Virus record (IMG/VR): IMGVR_UViG_3300035162_000013
Span: 1 to 35,347 of that record
Origin: a virus
Reading direction: 5' to 3' (one strand)
Length of the DNA stretch: 35,347 nt
Part shown: positions 11,221 to 34,494 of the stretch, in pieces
Layout: each line of letters opens with the position of its first letter
How positions within the stretch are numbered: the first letter of the stretch is position 1
Program-made: the position numbers and the translations under genes
The notes under the pieces: model-generated
Told to the model about the DNA's origin: nothing
Databases searched by the model: none
The model's input: only the letters and a program-made list of their open reading frames with translations

Positions 11221-12120
11221 ATGGTAGACATCACAGGCTGGGGCAGAGGTACATGGTCTGAAGGACCTTGGGATTCCGCTATTCCTGTGACAGTCACGGG
11301 GGTAGCCGGAACTGGTGCCGTTGGCTCAGTTGGCATCGTTGCGGAAGCTAATATCCCAGTAACGGGGACGGTTGCCACAACTGGTGTCGGATCAGTTACA
11401 GTATCTGCGGATGCAAACGTAGGGGTAACAGGTTTACAAGCAGCAGGAAGCGTCGGCACAGTTAGCGTCACTGCTGACGCTGTTGTTTTACCTACGGGTA
11501 TTGCTGCCACGGGGGGTGTCGGCTCTGTAGTTGTTATTGCAAAAGCCCTAGTTCTACCTACTGGAGTAGCGGGAACTGGAGCGGCAGGTTCAGTGGTTGT
11601 TACCGCAGACGCAAACGTAGGTGTCACAGGTCTAACAGCAACTGGGGATACGGGAACAGTAGTCGTTCAAGCAGAGGCAAATGTCCCTGTATCAGGTCTA
11701 GTAGGAACAAGTGCTGTTGGCACAGTAGAAGTTTTAGCCAACAGCGTAGTCGAAATACCTACTGGAGTAGCGGGAACAGGTGGTGTTGGAAGCGTTGTAG
11801 TAGCTGCAGAAGCTGTTATTTTACCCACTGGAATAGCCGGAATAGGCGAAATTGGGGACGTAGATGTAGGTATTCGCGTCATTGTTCCAGTTACAGGGTT
11901 GGAAAGTACGGGAAATGTTGGTACTATAACCGTAATCGCGGAAGCAAATGTCTCAATTACAGGCGTTTCTGCAACTGGTCAGACTGGAGAAGTGTTCGTT
12001 TGGAGCCAAATAGATCCTAACCAGACACCAGGATGGAATGGAATAACACCGTCGCAAACACCCGGTTGGGACGATATAACACCGTCGCAATCCCCTGGTT
12101 GGACAGAAATAGCGGCATAG
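11221..12120 (+). CDS. Repeat protein, eleven 22-residue units plus PGW repeats
   Basis: 299 residues. Residues 1-24 contain Trp and Gly (GWGRGTWSEGPWDS). From about residue 25 to 261 there are eleven units of about 22 residues with the pattern (V/P)TG(V/L/I)xxTGxxGxVxVxAxAxV, which should stack as a beta-solenoid or bead-like fibre. The tail has three copies of (I/D)xPxQ(T/S)PGW: DPNQTPGW, ITPSQTPGW and ITPSQSPGW. A long thin virion fibre or tail shaft is likely. Single units of the same repeat end the proteins at 9502 and 20976, suggesting these three share an interface or an origin. Confidence 0.75.
   Translation: MVDITGWGRGTWSEGPWDSAIPVTVTGVAGTGAVGSVGIVAEANIPVTGTVATTGVGSVTVSADANVGVTGLQAAGSVGTVSVTADAVVLPTGIAATGGVGSVVVIAKALVLPTGVAGTGAAGSVVVTADANVGVTGLTATGDTGTVVVQAEANVPVSGLVGTSAVGTVEVLANSVVEIPTGVAGTGGVGSVVVAAEAVILPTGIAGIGEIGDVDVGIRVIVPVTGLESTGNVGTITVIAEANVSITGVSATGQTGEVFVWSQIDPNQTPGWNGITPSQTPGWDDITPSQSPGWTEIAA
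11293..12003 (+). repeat. 66-bp imperfect tandem repeats inside a gene
   Basis: Eleven 22-codon units, diverged mostly at synonymous positions. Unit boundaries are marked by ACTGG or ACGGG encoding TG and by GTTGGCACAGTT-like DNA encoding VGTV. The reading frame is intact throughout. Confidence 0.75.
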
Positions 12121-12716: not shown

Positions 12717-13049
12717 ATGGCAAACACGTTTAAAAGAAAACTTTCACGGACTGTTGGTACTTCGCTTACTTCGGTAGGCAGCTACACTGTCCCATCATCA
12801 ACAGCTACAACGGTTATCGGATTGACGGTATCGAACGTTACAGCCTCCCAAGTTTTGATTACAGCGGTGGTAAACGACGGATCGAACGACACACATTTGA
12901 TTAAAGATGCCCCAGTTCCAAGTGGCGGTTCTATCGTTATTGTTGGTGGAGATCAAAAAGTAGTGTTAGAAACGGCAGATAGTGTTAAGGTAAGTTCGAA
13001 CACAGCAAGTTCTGTTGACGTAGTAATGAGTATACTGGAGATCACCTAA
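12717..13049 (+). CDS. Small virion-associated beta protein
   Basis: 110 residues. It starts ANTFKRKLSRTVGTSLTSVG, then YTVPSSTATTVIGLTVSNVT and HLIKDAPVPSGGSIVIVGGD, ending VVMSILEIT. This short beta-sandwich protein recurs in fibre operons of cyanophages and other marine phages and is regarded as a minor structural protein. It has no charge-rich or membrane part. The stop shares one base with the next start. Confidence 0.65.
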   Translation: MANTFKRKLSRTVGTSLTSVGSYTVPSSTATTVIGLTVSNVTASQVLITAVVNDGSNDTHLIKDAPVPSGGSIVIVGGDQKVVLETADSVKVSSNTASSVDVVMSILEIT

Positions 13050-14233
13050 TGGCAACACTTGGTAATGTACCTGCGGAAGCATATACGAACACTGTAAAAG
13101 ACAGTTTTAGTGGCAACGGTTCCACGACTGCTTTCACAATGTCATTGCCGACCGTAACGAACGACGTCAGGGTCGTAGTAGAGAACGTCATACAAGACCC
13201 GACGGTCGCGTACTCTGTATCGGGAACCACGCTTACATTTACGTCAGCCCCTCCATCAGGGACGAATAACATTTACGTTGTTCATCTAGGACCGGCGGTC
13301 ATGACGACTGTACCACCGGCTGAGATAGCGGATGCCACGACGTTTGCTTCGAGCCTCACGGTTCAAGGTGCGTTCACCTCTAAAGGGATTGACGATAACG
13401 CAGACGCAGTGGCACTTACGATTGATAGTTCAGAAAATGTTTTGGTGGGTAAGGCTTCTAGTAGCACTACCACAGCAGGTAATGAGTTAAGAGCTGGAGG
13501 GTTAGCCGCATTTACTAGGTCAGGCTCTTACTCATTAAACCTTAACCGACTAGCTTCAGACGGTGACATTGCAGTATTCCAAAAAGACGGCACAACTGTA
13601 GGTAGTATTGGGGCGCACTCAAGTGGGACATACCTTGGTACAGCAGACACTGGCATATATTTTAATGGTGGAAATGACAGTATTGACCCATATAATCCCA
13701 GTGTTCCAATTAATAGAGATAATGCTATTTCATTAGGGGCAGGGTCAAGACGCTTCAAAGACCTCTACCTATCAGGCGGTGTCTACCTCGGTGGCACTGG
13801 GGCGGCTAATAAGTTGGAAGATTATGAAGAGGGAACTTGGGAACCCACTATAATAGGAACAAGTAGTAGTCCTACTGTTACCTATCAAGCGGATAATGGC
13901 GGTTCTTACACAAAAATAGGTAGGGTTGTTTATTACACTGGTTGCGTTCGCTGGACTGCTTTTTCTGGAGGGTCGGGTACTGCAAGGATTGGTAATTTAC
14001 CTTTTACCTCGGCGGCAAGAACTAATGGCGATAACGCAGACAGTGTAGGGAGTGCTAGAACGTCTATTTGGAATGGAACATCAAGTAATCACCCTACAGT
14101 AATCGGCATGGTTGCTAATAACACAACACTTAACATAGTCGCTACCTCTTCCACAGGTACAGCGGCTACATTACAGATAAGTGATTTAGGAACAAATTGT
14201 AGTTTTCAATTTACTTGTATTGCGTATGTATAA
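13049..14233 (+). CDS. Tail fibre protein with exchangeable C-terminal domain
   Basis: 394 residues. The N-terminal domain (DSFSGNGSTTAFTMSLPTVT, VVVENVIQDPTVAYSVSG, LTFTSAPPSGTNNIYVVHLG) is the common attachment module of marine phage fibres. It is followed by a shaft with ADAVALTIDSSENVLVG and by a knob-like segment around residues 215-250. The boundary LEDYEEGTWEPT near residue 258 is followed by a C-terminal beta domain of about 130 residues (YTKIGRVVYYTGCVRWTAFS, ARIGNLPFTS). The same boundary and downstream DNA recur at the fibre ending at 15326. Likely receptor-binding. Confidence 0.78.
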   Translation: MATLGNVPAEAYTNTVKDSFSGNGSTTAFTMSLPTVTNDVRVVVENVIQDPTVAYSVSGTTLTFTSAPPSGTNNIYVVHLGPAVMTTVPPAEIADATTFASSLTVQGAFTSKGIDDNADAVALTIDSSENVLVGKASSSTTTAGNELRAGGLAAFTRSGSYSLNLNRLASDGDIAVFQKDGTTVGSIGAHSSGTYLGTADTGIYFNGGNDSIDPYNPSVPINRDNAISLGAGSRRFKDLYLSGGVYLGGTGAANKLEDYEEGTWEPTIIGTSSSPTVTYQADNGGSYTKIGRVVYYTGCVRWTAFSGGSGTARIGNLPFTSAARTNGDNADSVGSARTSIWNGTSSNHPTVIGMVANNTTLNIVATSSTGTAATLQISDLGTNCSFQFTCIAYV

Positions 14234-14256
14234 TAACCCACCGCATAGCTTTGGGT
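14233..14256 (+). repeat. 24-bp repeat after fibre gene, copy 1
   Basis: Begins at the last base of the stop: ATAACCCACCGCATA followed by GCTTTGGGT. It matches 15323-15346 at 23 of 24 positions, and both copies sit at the end of a fibre gene. ACCCA and TGGGT could pair as a weak hairpin with an 11-base loop. There is no T-tract, so it is unlikely to be a terminator. Confidence 0.85.
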
Positions 14257-14300
14257 CGGACAGGTGGCACTAACGTCACGATAAAACAAAGGAGGCCAAT

Positions 14301-14579
14301 ATGGCACTAACAAAAGTAATAACAGAAGATAAGATTGAAGTCGTTGGAGATCACAAAAATATTCAAGTGAGAACCAAAACCTCAGTTATGGAAGATGGTG
14401 TAGAACTATCATCAGGTTTCCATCGTCACGTCTTATCTTGCTCAACTAAATCAGATGACACATGGGGTGACACTGACATCTCAAGTGAGTCAACAGAAGT
14501 ACAAGCAATATGCAATGCAGTTTGGACAGACGCAGTGAAGACTGCATACCAGACAGCTATGGATGAAGCAGAAATATAG
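14301..14579 (+). CDS. Small fibre-operon protein
   Basis: 92 residues with a strong AAAGGAGG site. It starts ALTKVITEDKIEVVGDHKNI, then VRTKTSVMEDGVELSSGFHR HVL and a helical C-terminus (VQAICNAVWTDAVKTAYQTA). I recall this family from fibre regions of cyanophages and pelagiphages, function unknown. It is inserted between the two fibre genes that share flanking DNA, with 67 bases before it that contain the first copy of the 24-bp repeat. Confidence 0.6.
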   Translation: MALTKVITEDKIEVVGDHKNIQVRTKTSVMEDGVELSSGFHRHVLSCSTKSDDTWGDTDISSESTEVQAICNAVWTDAVKTAYQTAMDEAEI

Positions 14580-14588
14580 GAGACTAAC

Positions 14589-15326
14589 ATGAGTCGCGCA
14601 AGAGATACCGCAGATCAAATAAATAGAGTAAACTCTAGCGCGGCTGATGCTACCGCCATAACTGTGGATAGTTCAGAGACTGTTGGTATTGGGGTTACTC
14701 CATCCCCTTGGAGGAGTCTATATGGGGATAAGCAAGTTGATATTGGAGCGCACAGTTCAGTTTATTCAGAAGCGGGAAACACTACATATTTAGCTAACAA
14801 TTTTTATCGTAATGCTTCAAATGCTTTTATCTACAAAAAAACATCAGGAGCAAGTTACGTTTCCTTATCTCAGGAAAAAGTAATTTTTGCAGGGGCGGCA
14901 TCAGGGACGGCTGGGAATTCTTTTAGCTTTAGTGAGCGTGCTAGATTTGACAGTGACGGACTAAAGTTTAACGGAGACACCGCCGCCGCTAACGCTTTGG
15001 ACGATTATGAAGAGGGAAATTGGACTCCTGTAGGAGCAACTGGTTTTCCAGTAAGTTTAAGTTCGATTAACGCATCATATACAAAAGTTGGTGAATTAGT
15101 ATCTGTTAGGGCAAATTTTATAGCTAGAAATGATGGTACAACTTTATATATTTCTGGTTTACCTTTTACATCATCTGTTAATTGCGCTGCATCTATTTCG
15201 GTTAGTGACGGTACTGCTGTTACAGGAGAGAGAATAACTGCGGAGGGGTTTCGTTGCTTTATTGCAAGTACGATTAGCTCAAACGTTGCTTATTATCTTG
15301 AGGCTACATACGAAACAAACTCATAA
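14589..15326 (+). CDS. Second tail fibre protein with exchangeable C-terminal domain
   Basis: 245 residues, AGGAGA site. It lacks the attachment module of the fibre at 13049 and starts SRARDTADQINRVNSSAADA, then the shaft motif ATAITVDSSETVGIG. The middle includes SSVYSEAGNTTYLANNFYRN and ERARFDSDGLKFNGDTAAAN. The boundary LDDYEEGNWTPV then leads into a C-terminal beta domain (SYTKVGELVSVRANFIARND, LYISGLPFTSSVNC). It is related to the end of the first fibre but strongly diverged after the boundary, as expected for alternative receptor-binding tips. Confidence 0.72.
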   Translation: MSRARDTADQINRVNSSAADATAITVDSSETVGIGVTPSPWRSLYGDKQVDIGAHSSVYSEAGNTTYLANNFYRNASNAFIYKKTSGASYVSLSQEKVIFAGAASGTAGNSFSFSERARFDSDGLKFNGDTAAANALDDYEEGNWTPVGATGFPVSLSSINASYTKVGELVSVRANFIARNDGTTLYISGLPFTSSVNCAASISVSDGTAVTGERITAEGFRCFIASTISSNVAYYLEATYETNS

Positions 15327-15346
15327 CCCACCGCATAACTTTGGGT
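15323..15346 (+). repeat. 24-bp repeat after fibre gene, copy 2
   Basis: Second copy of the repeat at 14233-14256, with A in place of G at one position. It overlaps the TAA stop of the fibre gene. The 33 bases after it, before the gene at 15380, are AT-rich and contain only the AAAGGATAAAC ribosome binding site. Confidence 0.85.
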
Positions 15347-15379
15347 AATACACAACAATGAATAATAAAGGATAAACAA

Positions 15380-15877
15380 ATGGCATATCAAGGACGACAA
15401 CCGGGAGTAGGTGTACGAAACCGCTTCATATATTCTGCCACAAATGGTCAGACGTCCTTTAGCGGCGCTGACAGTAACGGGCTAACACTCGCCTACGCAG
15501 ACGCAACATATGTCGATGTGTTTTTAAACGGAACGCTTCTCGTTCCCGTAACGGATTACGCGGCCACAACTAAAACGTCCGTGGTCCTTGGATCGGGGGC
15601 CGCGGCTTCTGACATTGTGGAGATTGTAGCGTATGACATTAGTTCTATAGCAGACACGGTAAGCGCACTTAACGGTGGATCGTTCGGGGGGAACGTTATA
15701 GCACCTAAATTTTTAAGCACGACAACTAAGATTGAAACTGCTATATTTAGAATTAACGATCAAACGCTTAGTACGGACACAACAATTGACGCAGACGAAA
15801 ACGCTAGTGCGGCAGGGCCATTGGCTGTAGCATCTGGTGTAACCCTAACAGTCAATGGAAACTTAACGGTGATATAG
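15380..15877 (+). CDS. Tail fibre module of the GRQPGVG type
   Basis: 165 residues. It starts AYQGRQPGVGVRNRFIYSAT, then GQTSFSGADSNGLTLAYADA, VDVFLNGTLLVPVTDYAATT and SDIVEIVAYDISSIADTVSA. This is a widespread attachment or shaft module in marine phage fibres, where it is usually the N-terminus of a longer protein. Here it ends after a short beta tail (GVTLTVNGNLTVI), and the tag stop is immediately followed by the ATG of the first of three paralogous fibre genes. It probably anchors them. Confidence 0.7.
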   Translation: MAYQGRQPGVGVRNRFIYSATNGQTSFSGADSNGLTLAYADATYVDVFLNGTLLVPVTDYAATTKTSVVLGSGAAASDIVEIVAYDISSIADTVSALNGGSFGGNVIAPKFLSTTTKIETAIFRINDQTLSTDTTIDADENASAAGPLAVASGVTLTVNGNLTVI

Positions 15878-16414
15878 ATGAGTACATTACAAGTCGAAAA
15901 CTTAATAGGGCCAACATCTGGGTCTAATGCAAACAAGGTGATAATACCAAGCGGTCAAACACTGGATGCTAGTGCGGCAACACTTGTGCCTAGTGCTGGT
16001 CAGGTAGTTCAATGTGTTCAGTACTATGACCCATCCGCATCTTCCGAACAAACAACCAGCACTTCACTTGTTTCTTCAATCGTACATAAAACAATAACTC
16101 CAAAGTATTCAGATAGCAAGATTGTAATACAGTTAAGTCTTAGTATGGTAGATGCACAACAAACTAATATCAGAGGTAGAATGCGAGTAAATGATGTTGA
16201 TATGCCCTCCGCAGAACAGTTTATGTTAGGTTTCCAAGACGGAAATGCGCAAGCCCGATATACCCCATGGACTTTTAATGGTAACTATCAATGCACTTCA
16301 ACAGCCCCATTAACTTTTAGAGTATACTATATGAGTGGTAGCAGTAGTGTGAGTGTTAAAATAACTCATAACCAATCTGCCGCATCACTAATTTTATGGG
16401 AGATCGCGCAATGA
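15878..16414 (+). CDS. Fibre tip paralogue 1
   Basis: 178 residues. It begins STLQVENLIGPTSGSNANKV and contains the shared core of these paralogues: TTSTSLVSSIVHKTITPKYS DSKIVIQLSLS. The C-terminus is LILWEIAQ. This beta domain (S.v....TPk.s.SKi.v) is frequent at the tips of phage fibres. A central part with many Gln, Asn and Thr (FTFNGNYQCTSTAP region) is unlike the two sister genes. The stop overlaps the next ATG (ATGA). Confidence 0.68.
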   Translation: MSTLQVENLIGPTSGSNANKVIIPSGQTLDASAATLVPSAGQVVQCVQYYDPSASSEQTTSTSLVSSIVHKTITPKYSDSKIVIQLSLSMVDAQQTNIRGRMRVNDVDMPSAEQFMLGFQDGNAQARYTPWTFNGNYQCTSTAPLTFRVYYMSGSSSVSVKITHNQSAASLILWEIAQ

Positions 16415-16890
16415 GTACATTAAAAGTCGATAGCGTCGTTGAGAAGACCAGTGGCAATGGTGTGCAAATTGCAGGGCATGTAGTACAGGTTGTTAATGCT
16501 GTAACTACAACACTTTTTAATACGACATCTAGCTCTTATGTAGATATGAATTTGCAAGCATCCATAACACCCTTATCTGCGTCTAGCAAAATACTAGTTG
16601 TAGCAAATATTAATGTAGGCGTTTATGCATCTTCATACTTAGCTTACCCCAAGTTTAAAATATTAAGAGGTTCTACTACTTTAAGCGATACAGAAAAAAC
16701 TCACGTAGCAAGAGCAGATCAAGTAGGTAATTTTCAACAGTCTGCACAGCTTGGTTGGAGTTATTTAGATTCCCCAAGCACTACTTCTTTAACTACTTAT
16801 AAACTACAAATGAGAAATGACACTTCATATGGTGCAACCCTCTATGTACAAGATAAGTATGATATAACAGTAATGGAGATCGCACAATGA
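16411..16890 (+). CDS. Fibre tip paralogue 2
   Basis: 159 residues from the ATG at 16411 in an ATGA overlap. An in-frame ATG at 16396 is less likely because the opening MSTLKVDSVVEKTSGNG matches the start of paralogue 1. The core is SSSYVDMNLQASITPLSASS KILVVANINVG, the variable part is FKILRGSTTLSDTEKTHVAR, and the end is YDITVMEIAQ. Predicted beta domain of a receptor-binding fibre. Same coupling to the next gene. Confidence 0.7.
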   Translation: MSTLKVDSVVEKTSGNGVQIAGHVVQVVNAVTTTLFNTTSSSYVDMNLQASITPLSASSKILVVANINVGVYASSYLAYPKFKILRGSTTLSDTEKTHVARADQVGNFQQSAQLGWSYLDSPSTTSLTTYKLQMRNDTSYGATLYVQDKYDITVMEIAQ

Positions 16891-17414
16891 CCAGTATAAT
16901 AAAAGTCGATACTCTACAGACTGCGGCAGGTGCTGCACCAACGGCGGCTGACTTAGGGATTAATGTTACAGGTACAGTGTTACAGGTTGTTGAAGGCTCT
17001 AGTTCTACTAATACATCAATAACCGGTGCTACTTTTGCAGATACTTCTCTTTCTGTTTCAATAACCCCGAAGTCTTCTTCAAGTAAAGTTTTAGTTTTAA
17101 TCCAGCAAACATATGCTGCAGCTAATGGTGGTACTACTGAAATGGGTGTAGGTTTAAAACTGTTTAGAGGTAGCACTGAAATTGCCGCTATCAATGATTC
17201 CGCAAGAGCAATGGCACAATTACAGACATCAGATGGTTCATCACAACAAATGGCTGGAACAGCCTTTCTTCAAAAGTTAGACAGTCCAGCTACAACATCA
17301 GCCATTACTTATAAAACACAAGGGGCAACTTTTGCCGCTTCAAATACTACTACTTTAACATGTCAAAAGAATGGCACTCTAAGTCGTATAACAGTAATGG
17401 AAATAGCTGGCTAA
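16887..17414 (+). CDS. Fibre tip paralogue 3
   Basis: 175 residues, ATGA overlap with paralogue 2. It starts TSIIKVDTLQTAAGAAPTAA, has the core GATFADTSLSVSITPKSSSS KVLVLIQQ, then LKLFRGSTEIAAINDSARAM, and ends RITVMEIAG. Paralogues 2 and 3 are the closest pair (shared FRGST/LRGST and TVMEIA). The third ends in TAA and is followed by a strong AAAGGAGG for the next gene, so the tandem block stops here. Confidence 0.7.
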   Translation: MTSIIKVDTLQTAAGAAPTAADLGINVTGTVLQVVEGSSSTNTSITGATFADTSLSVSITPKSSSSKVLVLIQQTYAAANGGTTEMGVGLKLFRGSTEIAAINDSARAMAQLQTSDGSSQQMAGTAFLQKLDSPATTSAITYKTQGATFAASNTTTLTCQKNGTLSRITVMEIAG

Positions 17415-28753: not shown

Positions 28754-28990
28754 TCACTCGTCTATTTCTTTATAGGTGAAGCCTTCTCCTGTAACTACTA
28801 CATGTAGTCCTTTACCCCCGAAGAGTTTGATAAGCTCGTCTGAGTCCGCTTCGACTTCTGCTAGTACTTCTCGATCCTCAAGGGCCGCAGCACAGTTTAT
28901 AGCAACTGCTATGTAGTCTACCAAGGCATCGATTTGTAATTGATGCATCTGTTTAAAGCCTACAGTTTTAATGTCTTCTAGTTCCATCAT
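28754..28990 (-). CDS. Small acidic protein at the end of the replication operon
   Basis: 78 residues from the ATG whose last two bases begin the polymerase stop (ATGA), with GGGGAGA upstream. An in-frame ATG at 29005 would overlap further and puts a basic leader in front. The sequence is acidic and helical (ALVDYIAVAINCAAALEDRE VLAEVEADSDELIKLFG), with a short beta end (LHVVVTGEGFTYKEIDE). No family recognised. It is last in its operon and ends two bases from the oppositely directed giant virion gene. Confidence 0.6.
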   Translation of the reverse strand: MMELEDIKTVGFKQMHQLQIDALVDYIAVAINCAAALEDREVLAEVEADSDELIKLFGGKGLHVVVTGEGFTYKEIDE

Positions 28991-30921
28991 TCTATTTCTC
29001 CCCAATGGTCTTTAATATCAACGTCGATCTTAGATGGGATTGCCAAAGGCATTCCGGTCTCCATGATTTCTTTTATTTTAGATGCCTGTTCGTCACTCTC
29101 GATACTAAAGCATAACTCGTCGTGCACAGTAAGCATCGGAGTAAGCCCTTCGTTGTAGCAATCAAGCATCGCCTTCTTAGTTTGATCGGCGGCTGATCCT
29201 TGGATCAACTTGTTCAGAGCCTTGTATGTGAACGCTCTCCGTATGCCTCTGCCCCCAGGACCCCCGTACTCCTTCATAGCTTCGTCGTAAGGCAGAGGTT
29301 TGCCTATTCCGAATGTGACAGGCTCCCAAAGGTGGAAGCGGCATCTACGGCCCATTACAGTGCGTATCTGACCGTTCTTATCTCCCTGCTTAGTGGCAAG
29401 GTCTGCCAAACCTTTTACGAAAGGAACCTTAGAGTGGTGTCTACCGATCAAATCCTTGGCTGCTTCTTTAGAAATTCCAAGCTGATCGGCTAGTTTTGCC
29501 ACGCCCATGCCGTACATGATTCCAAGGTTCACCGTCTTCGCTTGCTTACGAGTGATGTTTGCAAGGTCCGCTACCATCTGGTGCAGGTCAACATCCCCTG
29601 TATTAAACTCTTCTACGATCTGATCCACGATTGGATGCCGGATAGTGGACGGAATCATCGAGGCAAAGTGAACGAGGAGCCTTGGCTCTTGACTTGAGTA
29701 GTCAAACGATCCCCACTTCTGCCCTTCTTCGGGGATGAATATCCCCCGTATATAACGTTTAATATCTGGGTCTCGAGCAGGAAGCTGCTGTAGGTTTGGG
29801 TTCGAAGAAGAAAATCTTCCGGTGACCGTTCCCCCAGAATCCCTGCGGGTAGAATGTAACTCAGTATGGATTCTTCCGTTGTGCTCATGACGCAGTATAC
29901 TATCAATGAAAGTACTGTCGGCTTTGTCGAACTCTCTTAGTTTAACTAAGATCTGTGCAACCTTCTCCGGATGCTCGTTAAGAAAACTTTTTGTAAACGA
30001 TGGAGACCCTTTCTCTGTGCGAGGGTATTCCAACTTCAACTTATCGAACATCTTTTGGATAGACGCGGATGCCCAGATATCCACCTCCATCCCTGCTTCT
30101 TTCTCCAACATTCCTCTAAGTAGTTTGCTTTGCTTTTGCAGAGCCTTTTTGTTTTCATCGGCTCGATCAAGATCAACACGCACACCCTTGGTTCTCATGT
30201 CCAAGATACACCGGATCAATCCTGTCTCCATGTTCCAGACATCCCACAACTCTTCCTTGTCCAGATGAACTTTCAACGCAGTCCATAGTTTAAGTGTGGC
30301 TACCGCATCCTGTTCCGCATAACCCCCCACAAATTTAGGAGGAAGCTTATACATTTCAGACTTAGGGTTGACTCCGAAATCTGCAGCAGCCGCCTTGAGT
30401 AGCTGTTCATTCTTTCGAACCCCTGCATAATCACGGGCCATAGCATCTAGGCCAAACGACCAACGGTTCTCATCGACCAAGGCTCCGGTCACCATGGTGT
30501 CGATGATCCTACCCTTAATCTCCACACCTTCTGCTCTCAACCAACCTGCGTCATAGGTTGCATTGTGCATAATCACATCCATCTCAGGAACTGATAGCTG
30601 TTTCTTGATCCACTTGAGCGTGATCCTCGGGTCCATGTTGTGCCCGTTCTCATGCCGCATAGGAAAGTACCCTTTGTATTCTCCGGCAGCGACAGCAATC
30701 CCAATGATATGTCCGTTGTTCGTGGCCCATCCAGGGCCGAGCGTAGTCAGGTTAGGGTCTTTTGTTTCCAGATCAACAGCCACCTCCTTGTACCCTGTAA
30801 GATCAGGGAACTCAGTTGGGATGTTCCAATCAGTTTCAATCACGTTCAACTCACCTTTGAGTTGGTAATTGAGATCACTGGAATCGCCGCTATCTTCTGT
30901 AAACAAAAACTTCTGACTCAT
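28987..30921 (-). CDS. polA: Family A DNA polymerase with 3'-5' exonuclease
   Basis: 644 residues. The exonuclease domain has Asp50-Leu-Glu52, Asn120-x3-Asp124 and Tyr201-x3-Asp205. The polymerase domain has TGRFSSSNPNLQQLP (about 368-381), motif A Asp407 in SFDYSSQEPRLL, the O helix Arg458-x3-Lys462-x3-Leu466-x3-Tyr470 in RKQAKTVNLGIMYG, and motif C His600-Asp601 in LTVHDELCF. There is no 5' nuclease domain, as in T7-type enzymes. It is probably the phage replicase. The residue matching E. coli Phe762 is Leu466. It overlaps both neighbours by four bases within the replication operon. Confidence 0.95.
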   Translation of the reverse strand: MSQKFLFTEDSGDSSDLNYQLKGELNVIETDWNIPTEFPDLTGYKEVAVDLETKDPNLTTLGPGWATNNGHIIGIAVAAGEYKGYFPMRHENGHNMDPRITLKWIKKQLSVPEMDVIMHNATYDAGWLRAEGVEIKGRIIDTMVTGALVDENRWSFGLDAMARDYAGVRKNEQLLKAAAADFGVNPKSEMYKLPPKFVGGYAEQDAVATLKLWTALKVHLDKEELWDVWNMETGLIRCILDMRTKGVRVDLDRADENKKALQKQSKLLRGMLEKEAGMEVDIWASASIQKMFDKLKLEYPRTEKGSPSFTKSFLNEHPEKVAQILVKLREFDKADSTFIDSILRHEHNGRIHTELHSTRRDSGGTVTGRFSSSNPNLQQLPARDPDIKRYIRGIFIPEEGQKWGSFDYSSQEPRLLVHFASMIPSTIRHPIVDQIVEEFNTGDVDLHQMVADLANITRKQAKTVNLGIMYGMGVAKLADQLGISKEAAKDLIGRHHSKVPFVKGLADLATKQGDKNGQIRTVMGRRCRFHLWEPVTFGIGKPLPYDEAMKEYGGPGGRGIRRAFTYKALNKLIQGSAADQTKKAMLDCYNEGLTPMLTVHDELCFSIESDEQASKIKEIMETGMPLAIPSKIDVDIKDHWGEIE

Positions 30922-31241
30922 TTATTTAGCACCTTGTCTAATCTATTAGATATCTCTTTCTCTCTATCAGAGAAATCTGATCCCAAGGCGCTATACCCAC
31001 ACTTATCAATCCAAGAATCCTCATGGTCTAGCCCGTTCAAAAGACGGGCGGACTTAACCCAATCCATCATGATCGCAACATGTTGCGCTGTAATGTATCC
31101 ATGAGTGCGTAGTGCCTCCCGTACTATTATATTCCATCCGTCAGCAATACGCGAGAAGTTATCGTGGGCATCCCCATAGTCCTTGGCTCTCTGCCCATTG
31201 ATCAGTTCTTTCGCCTGATCCAATACTTTATCTCTTTTCAT
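30918..31241 (-). CDS. DUF6378-type small phage protein
   Basis: 107 residues. Diagnostic parts are AKELINGQRAKDYGDAHDNF SRIADGWN, TAQHVAIMMDWVKSARLLNG and HEDSWIDKCGYSALG. These match a conserved family of small phage proteins of unknown function (DUF6378). The invariant-looking RAKDYG, Met-Met-x-x-K-R and DSWID-GY positions look like an active or binding site, perhaps for a nucleotide. It is sandwiched between helicase and polymerase with ATGA overlaps on both sides, so a role in nucleotide or DNA metabolism is likely but not shown. Confidence 0.75.
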   Translation of the reverse strand: MKRDKVLDQAKELINGQRAKDYGDAHDNFSRIADGWNIIVREALRTHGYITAQHVAIMMDWVKSARLLNGLDHEDSWIDKCGYSALGSDFSDREKEISNRLDKVLNK

Positions 31242-32767
31242 AGCGTGTACCTATACTTGTTACTGGATTGTAGGATATACAGATTGTGCCGCGCTCTTGT
31301 GATGGCAACATAAAATGCTCGATGTTCATCGTCGGGGAACCTAGTGGCGTAACAAGCTTTGGTCGAAGCAGTCCAAACCATACAGTTGTCATCTTCGCCA
31401 CCCTTCATAGCGTGGAAAGTCGATACCTTGATACGAGGTTCAGATAGAAGATTCTCCCCTCTGCGAAAGATAGCGTCGATGTACTCTTGCTCTGCACCAG
31501 ATACGTTGAAAATTTCATACGCCCCGTAAGCTGCATCTTTCAGAAGACCGTAATCTTTTAGCAGGTCGTTCATGGACAACATAGTCTCTGCAGGTAAGGC
31601 ATCGAGCAACTGCGTAGAACCTCGGCGTACAACTGCATCTACACCCTGTTTCTTTACAGACTCGTAGATCCTTTTGACCTCGGGCAAAGTTATAGCTTCA
31701 TCTTTACACAGGCTTTCCCAAGCCAATAGGTTGTGTACTAATGTTTCGGAAAGACTAGACTTACCGTTGCGTGAGTATTTATACCCCTGCCCTCGTAACC
31801 AGTTCGCCATCTCGGACACATATCCATTGGTCCTTGCCATCAACGTCCAAGACCCCTCATGGATTGGAGCTTCGGACAGGTAGTTAATGTACTCTACCTT
31901 GCCTTCTTCCTCACGGGCGGTGAACACCTTCTCATGCCGACCAGTAATTCTTTTTGATATTGATTGCGCGAGTCGGTGGACCGACTTGGGAATGCGATAC
32001 GACTGACTAAGAACCTCGATGTTATCAGAACTGTTGTTAAACTCTGATACCTCGACCCCCGTCCATCGGTGAATAGCCTGATCATCATCCCCTGCAATCC
32101 AAACAAACTCAGACTTTTCCGCTATCTTTCTTGCCATGTCCCACTGCAAAGGGGTGAAGTCTTGAGCCTCATCAATAAACAAGTAGTCCAGATTCGGAGT
32201 CTCACCGTGCTCAATAAACTTCTCGATCATGTCTACAAAATCATATTTGTCTGTAGACATTTTGTATTCAACTAACTGTTTAGATAGCTGATCCAATTTG
32301 GCATGGAACAAATTCCAATCGGCTTCCTCATTGTACTCCTGATCGATGCTGATCTTTCTCAAACGTGCGCGATTATCTAGCTGAAGATACCGAGCACCCG
32401 ACCCTCCAACCGTAGGCAATGTAACCCCACCGTCTAAAGACGTGTAATCTTTGCCTTCAAACGTCAGGCCAATCTCTCTGCCTATGTTGGCATAGTCCTC
32501 TGGCCCCATGATATCAGTAGTCTTGAGACCCAGACCATGGAATCCAAATGCATGTGTAGTTTTCATGTAAGGAAAGTCTTTGGGCTCTAGCTTAAATTTA
32601 CCACAGGCTCGAGCAATCATTTCCTCGATGGCCTTTCTTGTAAAAGAAATAACTCCAATACGAGAGGGATGAGCGCCGGAGTCTAGTGCCGCCTCTATCT
32701 CTTGTATCAAGCGATAAGTTTTACCGCACCCAGGTGGACCTAGCAGAAGTTTACTGTTCTGTATCAT
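31238..32767 (-). CDS. Superfamily 1 (UvrD/Rep-like) DNA helicase
   Basis: 509 residues, shorter than cellular UvrD (about 720). Motifs in order: Walker A GPPGCGKT (10-17), motif Ia VISFTRKAIEEM, motif II FIDEAQDFTPLQW, motif III IAGDDDQAIHRW, motif IV LSQSYRIP, motif V KVSTFHAMKGGEDDNCMVW and motif VI FYVAITRARHNLYI. All residues needed for ATP hydrolysis appear present. It should unwind DNA for replication or recombination. The start has GAGGAAAA upstream and overlaps the AlpA-like gene by 17 bases. Confidence 0.93.
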   Translation of the reverse strand: MIQNSKLLLGPPGCGKTYRLIQEIEAALDSGAHPSRIGVISFTRKAIEEMIARACGKFKLEPKDFPYMKTTHAFGFHGLGLKTTDIMGPEDYANIGREIGLTFEGKDYTSLDGGVTLPTVGGSGARYLQLDNRARLRKISIDQEYNEEADWNLFHAKLDQLSKQLVEYKMSTDKYDFVDMIEKFIEHGETPNLDYLFIDEAQDFTPLQWDMARKIAEKSEFVWIAGDDDQAIHRWTGVEVSEFNNSSDNIEVLSQSYRIPKSVHRLAQSISKRITGRHEKVFTAREEEGKVEYINYLSEAPIHEGSWTLMARTNGYVSEMANWLRGQGYKYSRNGKSSLSETLVHNLLAWESLCKDEAITLPEVKRIYESVKKQGVDAVVRRGSTQLLDALPAETMLSMNDLLKDYGLLKDAAYGAYEIFNVSGAEQEYIDAIFRRGENLLSEPRIKVSTFHAMKGGEDDNCMVWTASTKACYATRFPDDEHRAFYVAITRARHNLYILQSSNKYRYTL

Positions 32768-32978
32768 AGTCTTTTCCTCTTGGTCGTTGGTTAACCCAAT
32801 CCTCTATCTCTTCGAGAACCCAACGGCTGGCGGATCTTCTATTGTACTCACTGCCGAGCACGATAGGTTGGGGGAAGCTTGAGTCTGTTTGTGCCAGTTT
32901 GTAAACGTATGACTTAGATACCCCAAGCAGATCGGCTACTTCGGATACCCTCATCAGCTTATTAGAACGGGATGTCAT
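32751..32978 (-). CDS. AlpA-like small DNA-binding protein
   Basis: 75 residues from the ATG at 32978, which has a perfect AAGGAG seven bases upstream. A start at 33020 would be deep inside the primase gene without a site. Residues 8-28 (LMRVSEVADLLGVSKSYVYK L) are a MerR/AlpA-type helix-turn-helix. FPQPIVLGSEYNRRSASRWV LEEIEDWVNQR is the usual wing and C-terminal helix. Proteins of this kind act as excisionases or transcription regulators. Here, inside a replication operon with no integrase, control of operon expression or origin binding is more likely. The first 17 bases encode the primase tail in another frame. Confidence 0.85.
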   Translation of the reverse strand: MTSRSNKLMRVSEVADLLGVSKSYVYKLAQTDSSFPQPIVLGSEYNRRSASRWVLEEIEDWVNQRPRGKDYDTEQ

Positions 32979-34494
32979 TTGATATCTCCTTAATTGGTAG
33001 TTCAACTTCGCCTTCGTCAAAGGCAGGAATTACCCAACACCTAAGAGTAGACTTTATTTCGCCTTTCGGGCTTCGCTTAACGATGTTCTGCTTGCCAGTG
33101 TCTCCACCCATGTCTCGAATCATCTGCATAAGCTGACCTCTGGTCGGACCAGAGAATCTACGATGGTGAAGGTACTCCAACAAACCATCTAGTTTAAACT
33201 TCGTTGCACCTCCATCCGTCCATGGCTTACCCATATCCATTTCCTCTGGGGACATGGCTCGTACATGGCTTGTGCAGTAGTTCCGCAAGTGATCTTTGAA
33301 CTGTCCTGCGATTGTCAGTTCCGGAGGCACTTCTAAGAAGGTCGCACCTTGCATCAAACTGTTGACCAGTTGCTGCCACTTCTGAGGCTTCATCGTCGGA
33401 GGCATCATGTTCTTTTGATCCATGCAAGCACGTTGGAAAAGCGTCTGATTCTGTAGTTGCTCAGTGCTTAACTGTATTCTGTCTCCATCCACGTCCATAA
33501 AAAACAGGCGGGGCTCAGAAAGCATGATCGTAAGACCGCCAACCGAAACAGCGTCCGGTGCATCATTACCTATTCCAAACTTTCTCGTAGCGCATACTGC
33601 AGGATCACAGTAACTCCGCATCGGTTCATCTTTACAGGTGTAGAGATATTCTTTTTTCTCATGCTGCTTTGTAAGATTCACGATCTCGCTCGAGGGCAGA
33701 GGCGGACTAGCTAGTGTCCGGTTGTACCCTTCAAACTCTTGTTGCCACTGATCTGGACTCTTCATCTTGCAGTACCGAGCTACGTTGAACAGCGTGTTGT
33801 TTCTGAACTCGTCCACAGGTCCATCTGAAAACAAATGCTCGAGGCAAGGAGGTCCATCGGTAAAGTGTTGACGGGGCTTGGATAAGCGCATCCCCTCGAG
33901 GTCGCTTAAAGATACCCTGGATTTATCCACTGTGTCTAGAAACTCGTCTAACTCCAAAGCTTCTGTCTTAGAATTAAAGGCATACCGTTGTGGTAGGTCC
34001 GCATTGAAGTATGGCATGTTGATAAAGTTACCAACGTCACCACGCTCCGCGATGATGGTGTCCTGTTTGGGAAACACCTCACAACCACTGTGTCCTAATG
34101 CAATGGACATCTCAGTCAAATAATCTCGTATGTCTGCAGCTTGTTCCCAATCTTTTAAAAACAAATACAAGTGAGCACCGCCCGACTTGGATCGACAATG
34201 AACCAAAGGAAGCTTTAACTTCTGGATCTTGTCCTGCATTTCGTTGTGGTTTAAATCGTATACATCTATATCAAGCGCACCGAACTTACACTTGTTCTCT
34301 TCGTTGATTGGGATCGCACCAATACCCTGCTTCCCATCGATGTGGGCTTGCACAAGTTCCTCGGTCAGAGGTTCACGAACAATCATACTCTTGGATTCTG
34401 CTTTTCCATTGCGGCCCACCCGTCCTACAGTTGTAGTACCGTGTGCAGATTTAGCCCCAAGAAAAGAGGCAAGCAATCTTTCTGCTTGTGTCAT
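32962..34494 (-). CDS. AEP-family primase with SSB-like C-terminal tip
   Basis: 510 residues, AGGAGA site. The archaeo-eukaryotic primase core shows Asp75-x-Asp77 in FGALDIDVYD, SGGAHLYLFL with His108, and GNFINMPYF near residue 173. This resembles the primase domain of TOTE-type and related phage proteins. A cysteine segment around residue 290 (YTCKDEPMRSYCDPAVC then TRKFGIG) may bind zinc. The C-terminal third is helical, without a visible helicase motif. The last residues, EISNDIPF, copy the acidic tip of bacterial SSB proteins, a known docking peptide. It likely makes primers for the family A polymerase in the same operon. Confidence 0.85.
   Translation of the reverse strand: MTQAERLLASFLGAKSAHGTTTVGRVGRNGKAESKSMIVREPLTEELVQAHIDGKQGIGAIPINEENKCKFGALDIDVYDLNHNEMQDKIQKLKLPLVHCRSKSGGAHLYLFLKDWEQAADIRDYLTEMSIALGHSGCEVFPKQDTIIAERGDVGNFINMPYFNADLPQRYAFNSKTEALELDEFLDTVDKSRVSLSDLEGMRLSKPRQHFTDGPPCLEHLFSDGPVDEFRNNTLFNVARYCKMKSPDQWQQEFEGYNRTLASPPLPSSEIVNLTKQHEKKEYLYTCKDEPMRSYCDPAVCATRKFGIGNDAPDAVSVGGLTIMLSEPRLFFMDVDGDRIQLSTEQLQNQTLFQRACMDQKNMMPPTMKPQKWQQLVNSLMQGATFLEVPPELTIAGQFKDHLRNYCTSHVRAMSPEEMDMGKPWTDGGATKFKLDGLLEYLHHRRFSGPTRGQLMQMIRDMGGDTGKQNIVKRSPKGEIKSTLRCWVIPAFDEGEVELPIKEISNDIPF

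Follow-up and report, generated by a model that had tools for sequence, protein, structure and literature searches.

The window examined here is the whole of a 35,347-nucleotide stretch of viral DNA (IMG/VR record IMGVR_UViG_3300035162_000013). Its central part carries two tail fibre genes on the same strand, separated by a small conserved gene. The ‘position’ of a fibre gene (1 or 2) is defined by the leader that comes after it. Searches of Pfam returned nothing for the fibre genes. The two-fibre region contains the following features:

13049..14233, + strand: fibre gene 1 (position 1), an open reading frame of 394 aa, with residues 1-174 matching the PHROG tail fibre family phrog_18673 (E=6e-17)
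13610..13750, + strand: middle segment of fibre gene 1, a second variable module 5' of the linker; close relatives align at the DNA level up to about -204 nt from the motif and again once the linker is reached
13751..13835, + strand: 5' border linker RFKDLYLSGGVYLGGTGAANKLEDYEEG, conserved at the codon (DNA) level in 52/66 fibre genes
13836..14230, + strand: variable tip domain 1, with 24-37% aa identity to tips from contigs with similar flanks and no long DNA match
14236..14256, + strand: 3' border, a stop-codon stem-loop of type a (ACCCA..TGGGT); relatives have alternative hairpin classes in the same place
14264..14279, + strand: second hairpin (GTGGC-N6-GTCAC), located within the next gene's leader and marking position 1
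14301..14579, + strand: small conserved gene that follows position 1, with a product of 92 aa, phrog_6228 (PHROG E=4e-24)
14589..15326, + strand: fibre gene 2 (position 2), an open reading frame of 245 aa, matching phrog_29288 and phrog_892 (tail fibre)
14973..15018, + strand: 5' border of gene 2, linker B (GGAGACACCGCCGCCGCTAACGC..DYEEG), with the same DNA in five viral contigs
15019..15323, + strand: variable tip domain 2, for which an AlphaFold2 model from 62 tips resembles phage receptor-binding domains
15326..15346, + strand: 3' border of gene 2, a stop-codon stem-loop of type a with one G-to-A change in the loop region
15347..15379, + strand: position-2 leader AATACACAACAATGAATAATAAAGGATAAACAA, before the next fibre gene; the pattern ACAACAATGAATARYAAAGGATAAACAAATGGC occurs in 7 other contigs

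Relatives of fibre gene 1 were found at 80 viral loci, and the small phrog_6228 gene occurs in 66 cyanophage, pelagiphage, and other marine phage records. Elsewhere in the window, three consecutive fibre-like genes (15878-17414; starts at 15878, 16411, and 16890) share their first ~20 bases (ATGAGTACATTACAAGTCGA-like), and the last two match the tail fibre family phrog_6942. Repeats spaced by ~66 bases (11291-11963) lie inside the gene at 11221-12120, which encodes a repetitive protein without a family match. The protein encoded at 3778-4266 matches phage co-chaperonin GroES (phrog_3188, E=2e-14). Replication genes occupy 28987-34494 on the minus strand and encode a UvrD-like helicase, an archaeo-eukaryotic-type primase, and a family A DNA polymerase that is ~48% identical to those of pelagiphages HTVC023P and HTVC027P.

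A previous sequence-only reading of this DNA had reported that both fibre genes carry an identical 16-bp stretch at the start of the C-terminal domain. This repeat (GATTATGAAGAGGGAA) is indeed exact at 13820-13835 and 15003-15018, and the 52-nt pair enclosing the two copies is 77% identical. The 5' edge is nevertheless larger than was reported, as in gene 1 the 16 bp are the tail end of a longer linker (13751-13835) that is conserved as DNA. The gene 2 linker (14973-15018) is unlike that of gene 1 and joins at the same DYEEG motif. Also as reported, the sequences between the marks differ, the two fibre genes having dissimilar linkers, tips, and leaders.

The downstream repeat (ATAACCCACCGCATARCTTTGGGT) was likewise recovered at 14233-14256 and 15323-15346, with 23/24 bases identical (96%). 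It had been placed just after the stop codons; the coordinates are exact, yet the 24-mer takes in stop-codon bases, namely the final A of the gene 1 stop codon and the whole stop codon of gene 2. A second in-frame TAA comes after the fibre gene 1 stop. The functional unit of the repeat is ACCCACCGCATARCTTTGGGT (14236-14256 and 15326-15346), a stem-loop. Both 24-bp copies are direct rather than inverted. Within the window, the 19-bp core occurs at two places only when up to three mismatches are allowed. None of 100 dinucleotide shuffles contained two core matches (mean 0.01), which rules out a chance origin.

The exact core was then sought in 2.9 million viral contigs, and the contigs found are referred to by L-numbers. 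It is present in 21 other viral contigs, in every one of which it lies on the stop codon, or 3-5 nt past it, of a gene with a DYEEG-type C-terminal domain (contig L002 begins inside such a domain). The sequence-only reading had proposed checking whether the element always ends a DYEEG-type fibre domain, and for the exact type-a pattern it does so in 21/21. The domains that it ends differ among these contigs. In L010, the gene stops five bases earlier and CATAA is still kept before the element, so that ATAA seems to be part of it. Bacterial genomes (257 billion bases) yielded two matches, L024 and L025, neither at a fibre gene. These were rejected as relatives, their number being approximately that expected by chance for a search of this size.

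These counts bear on the simplest account of the repeat, a recent duplication of one fibre gene end in this genome with no wider meaning, which the sequence-only reading had named as the case that would count against it. Two copies that are 23/24 identical in one genome would fit such an event, as would the finding that four of six two-cassette contigs carry the same hairpin class at both genes. The element is, however, present in 21 other contigs and related hairpins occur in 66 genes, while the linkers, tips, and leaders of the two window genes differ. Duplication of this kind is thus extremely improbable.

Relatives were also collected by scanning for the downstream leaders while ignoring tip and hairpin, which gave 74 contigs for the position-1 leader and 7 for the position-2 leader. 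Together with earlier loci, these scans provided 66 distinct fibre genes, the majority selected from the downstream leader alone. Nearly every leader-chosen contig has a stem-loop between stop and leader. The hairpins fall into several classes: a (CCCAYYGCATAGCTTTGGG), b (CCCWYTYAGAGATTGGG), c (CCCCACACCAMGGGG), and d, of which CCCTGTTGGATCACAGGG and GCCTAGTGGATTCTAGGC are examples. A scan for class b found 60 stretches. Classes a and b combined are accompanied by the fibre motif at 68 of 75 distinct places; the other seven comprise four cut by a contig end, one with an unclear frame (L141), and two chance-like matches (L192 and L194). Fibre genes are therefore present at all but two of the class a and b matches that have enough readable upstream sequence. 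In L141 (8572-8640), a class-b hairpin is accompanied by the position-1 leader, and the upstream fibre frame is not readable to the stop.

The hairpin classes differ in sequence while preserving pairing. The arms are complementary in all classes: L128 has CCTA/TAGG in place of CCCA/TGGG, and L027 and L142 have G-U variants. Stop-to-leader segments, stop codon included, have a mean folding energy of -7.7 kcal/mol compared with -4.8 kcal/mol after shuffling, and 43 of 44 fold below their own shuffled mean. Simply counting stems gave a weaker contrast when the stop codon was excluded (56% vs 26% for shuffled segments). Run on the aligned sequences, RNAalifold found few two-sided changes and little covariation; the hairpin classes cannot be lined up in such an alignment. 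The case for pairing rests mainly on comparison from class to class. At position 1, a second hairpin (GTGGC..GCCAC) comes next.

Several known kinds of element were considered for the stem-loop and rejected. It is not an intrinsic terminator, since the stem is followed by YGGACAG or AATAC without a T run, nor is it a general gene-end signal, as within the window the AACCC/GGGT hairpin ends the two fibre genes only. An integron cassette array does not fit an element of ~21 nt with changing loops, and no integrase was found among the window proteins scanned. Rfam gave no match up to E=1 across 13700-15500, and a literature search on fibre modules with intergenic stem-loops found nothing.

The sequence-only reading considered the non-coding downstream repeat notable because protein selection does not account for it. 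Exchange is not needed to explain the conservation of this repeat, because the arms are complementary across classes and RNA structure suffices. The hairpin is probably maintained above all for its RNA structure where the fibre frame ends, and it most likely acts in the mRNA, in the interval separating the fibre gene from the small conserved gene (phrog_6228).

The 5' border is conserved differently. The linker RFKDLYLSGGVYLGGTGSANK precedes the motif in 52 of the 66 genes, the remaining 14 having other linkers. Linker B DNA, for example, was found in five viral contigs that include the cassette-bearing contigs L136/L029 and L146. The linker codons are near-fixed and often rare: CTC is used in 87% of cases against a background of 3%, TCG in 82% against 5%, and AAG in 100% against 22%. 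Where the amino acid is the same, codon identity in the linker is 0.70 against an expected 0.385, even for pairs without detectable upstream DNA similarity. This conservation of silent sites is limited to codons -20 to +5 around DYEEG; among the leader-scan genes only (n=27), codon identity jumps at -20 and has returned to background near codon +6. The linker is 52% GC and the tips 39%. Since the same codons are kept even between genes without upstream homology, the 5' edge is conserved as DNA, and protein selection alone is insufficient to account for it. Nor does RNA folding explain the silent-site conservation, as the linker has no stable fold (mean z 0.33). No mention of DYEEG was found in the literature searched.

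Between these borders lie the tips. Of 60 gene pairs whose DNA is >85% identical on either side of the tip, 58 have tips that lack DNA similarity. L043 and L044, for instance, are 93% identical over 1503 nt upstream and 95% identical downstream from the first post-stop base, with no match between the tips; in L029/L039, DNA similarity likewise returns at the first base past the stop. Window gene 1 follows the same pattern relative to its relatives, with ~80% identity after the stop, 67-84% in the stem, and 24-37% at the amino acid level in the tip.

The converse arrangement also occurs. Seven tip pairs are 84-93% identical in DNA (77-89% aa) and are attached to dissimilar adjacent stems, which have 35-47% aa identity or none. 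In three of the seven, a position-1 tip matches a position-2 tip (L138 and L013 vs L149; L112 vs L029), and the shared downstream DNA is confined to the hairpin and a few bases. Because little else is shared there, the hairpin is the sole 3' homology at hand in these cross-position pairs. The identity of shared tips starts in the linker or at DYEEG and, in several pairs, ends in or just after the hairpin. The linkers of L112 and L029 are unlike, and similarity starts at the DYEEG codons. A switch of hairpin class follows the stop in L001/L134 and L138/L149, whose tips match as far as that stop. The hairpin does not mark every 3' junction, since L107/L142 and L016/L039 share tips and keep the same leader. 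A second variable module lies at about -204 to -66 nt from the motif. DNA of L013, L138, and L149 is alike again farther upstream (86-90% beyond ~-350 nt), so the dissimilar stretch in these contigs is the middle module and not the whole gene.

These patterns support the sequence-only reading of the fibre ends as exchangeable cassettes, with swapped tips at the same locus and between fibre positions. We consider it probable (roughly 0.84) that the two fibre genes carry exchangeable receptor-binding tip cassettes swapped by short-homology recombination. Comparison of the sequences supports a tip cassette, the last ~110-140 aa, that would be exchanged between marine bacterial viruses and between the two fibre genes. 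A reading without exchange would have only a functional RNA hairpin, one that protects the 3' end, causes pausing, or controls the next gene, and a linker that serves only as protein structure, with tips that diverge fast. It gains from the stable folds and from the arm complementarity of all classes, including the CCTA/TAGG of L128 and the G-U variants of L027 and L142. Fast divergence predicts the opposite of tips that are 84-93% identical in DNA on stems of 35-47% aa identity or none, and selection on the protein would not by itself freeze the linker at silent sites; this reading is accordingly improbable.

A dedicated site-specific recombinase might instead move the tips at the linker, the hairpin, or both, in the manner of integrase/attC or Gin/Cin crossover sites. 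Such a system would fit the short, fixed borders that flank the variable segment, and the constant place and orientation of the element. The hairpin class changes, however, with the pairing alone kept; the two repeat copies are direct, not inverted; some pelagiphages lack the hairpin and linker types differ; and no recombinase, whether integrase or invertase, was identified among the scanned proteins of the window, which is not a complete genome. We regard this as very unlikely. An invertible fibre segment of the Gin/Cin/Pin type was rejected given the direct repeats and the lack of an invertase among the window proteins scanned. With regard to a diversity-generating retroelement, which has template and variable repeats that differ at adenines as well as a reverse transcriptase, the tips differ throughout (24-37% aa), and no reverse transcriptase was found among the proteins scanned in this incomplete window.

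Nearly all of the swap cases are metagenomic assemblies, and the swaps are read from comparison rather than seen directly. Short-read assemblers misjoin at shared tracts such as those of 66 and ~24 nt, and the tracts shared here, of just these lengths, are of the misjoin-prone kind. Assembly error, in which a shared linker or hairpin would link reads that come from different phages, is therefore the main caution on exchange. It is eased by cultured phages with complete genomes that share the architecture. Roseobacter phage CRP-804, on which no paper was found, has the same architecture, with similar linker DNA, a class-c stop hairpin, and a similar leader. Methylophilales phage Melnitz-3 has a class-d hairpin. 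Pelagiphages HTVC119P, 131P, 134P, and 304P have one linker DNA of their own in common under different tips, in five copies across the four phages. That artefacts created the mosaic contigs is accordingly a slight prospect.

The stop hairpin is absent from these four pelagiphages. Since they have a shared linker without it, a DNA-conserved linker accompanies tip diversity more widely than the hairpin does, and the hairpin is better viewed as a convenient joint than as a required signal. In HTVC119P (L169:2809 and L169:3009), the linker and tip start form a tandem pair, of which the first copy ends early; the full tip comes next, in another frame.

The predicted structure of the tip suggests a role in host recognition. 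An AlphaFold2 model from 62 tips (pLDDT 81) is rich in beta strands and matches the C-terminal domain of the Dettilon tailspike gp208 (Z 10.0, 2.8 A, 105 residues). Less clear matches are Listeria phage PSA gp15 (Z 7.9, 3.0 A, 99 residues) and the receptor-binding protein of lactococcal phage TP901-1 (Z 7.6, 5.5 A, 112 residues). Sequence identity to the three is 13-18%, and the matches other than Dettilon fall in a range in which fold similarity is commonplace. On the strength of this model, the tip is likely to bind the receptor, and the last ~110-140 aa of the tail fibre are likely the part touching the host.

The sequences show each tip lying between a DYEEG-terminated linker on its 5' side and, on its 3' side, the stop codon and stem-loop, with related tips placed on differing backbones and before the differing leaders of positions 1 and 2. 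Junctions map to the linker or to DYEEG itself, and frequently to the stop-codon hairpin or just past it. In the proposed mechanism, exchange would proceed by ordinary homologous (short-homology) recombination between co-infecting phages. The linker (66-78 nt) would supply the 5' arm of homology; the 3' arm would be the hairpin with the next leader and conserved gene, or the hairpin alone for a transfer from one fibre position to the other. Silent-site identity of the linker may be maintained by frequent exchange of one pool, perhaps with additional selection for homology. The hairpin probably protects the fibre message or separates it from the next gene. New tips would change the receptor recognised. 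More tentatively, linker and hairpin could both be selected as exchange borders, forming a standardised format for tip cassettes across families with no dedicated recombinase. We hold this to be considerably less probable than exchange itself; alternatively, an RNA hairpin and a linker may simply have been spread by exchange.

Parts of this arrangement have precedents. Lambdoid phages have boundary sequences, short conserved tracts at module edges that act as recombination joints between genes. Those boundaries are intergenic, whereas here one border is intragenic and frozen at silent sites. In T-even phages, the C-terminal specificity determinants of the distal fibre (genes 37/38) are shuffled from phage to phage when conserved motifs recombine (Tetart, Desplats, and Krisch 1998, J Mol Biol 282:543, as described in PMC3797505). 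From that description, the likeness lies in C-terminal specificity domains exchanged at conserved motifs. The features by which such swapping is recognised are present here: a variable C-terminal specificity domain between conserved flanks (58/60 pairs), the same tip on different backbones (seven pairs, three of them cross-position), and junctions within short conserved tracts. The differences from what is described for T-even phages are a 5' linker frozen at silent sites, a non-coding stop-codon stem-loop as 3' border, and one tip pool shared by two fibre genes.

Among marine phages, metaviromic islands have variable host recognition genes, and the C-terminal tail fibres of related phages are dissimilar (Mizuno et al. 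2014, PMC3909814). Variability was identified there by read recruitment; the word ‘recombination’ is absent from its text, and border elements are absent from its relevant passages. Alteromonas phages A5 and V22 share a host recognition module, indicating that fibre modules move between unrelated marine phages (PMC10579305). That module is a whole fibre-chaperone unit, while the present one is a tip cassette with DNA borders. Adhesin swapping in T-even phages and variable fibre ends in marine phages are thus already known, as far as these sources describe them (PMC3797505; PMC3909814). The new parts are the silent-site-frozen linker, the stop-codon hairpin border, and the sharing of tips between two fibre positions.

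These findings bear on the means by which lytic phages of the ocean track changes in host receptors. Recognisable DNA borders allow tips to be catalogued from metagenomes by border sequence alone, and a defined cassette makes swap rates measurable in long reads. Silent-site conservation beyond protein selection makes evolution for exchangeability a testable proposition. If the borders are selected for exchange, tips could pass from one fibre position, or one phage family, to another with no need of a dedicated recombinase.
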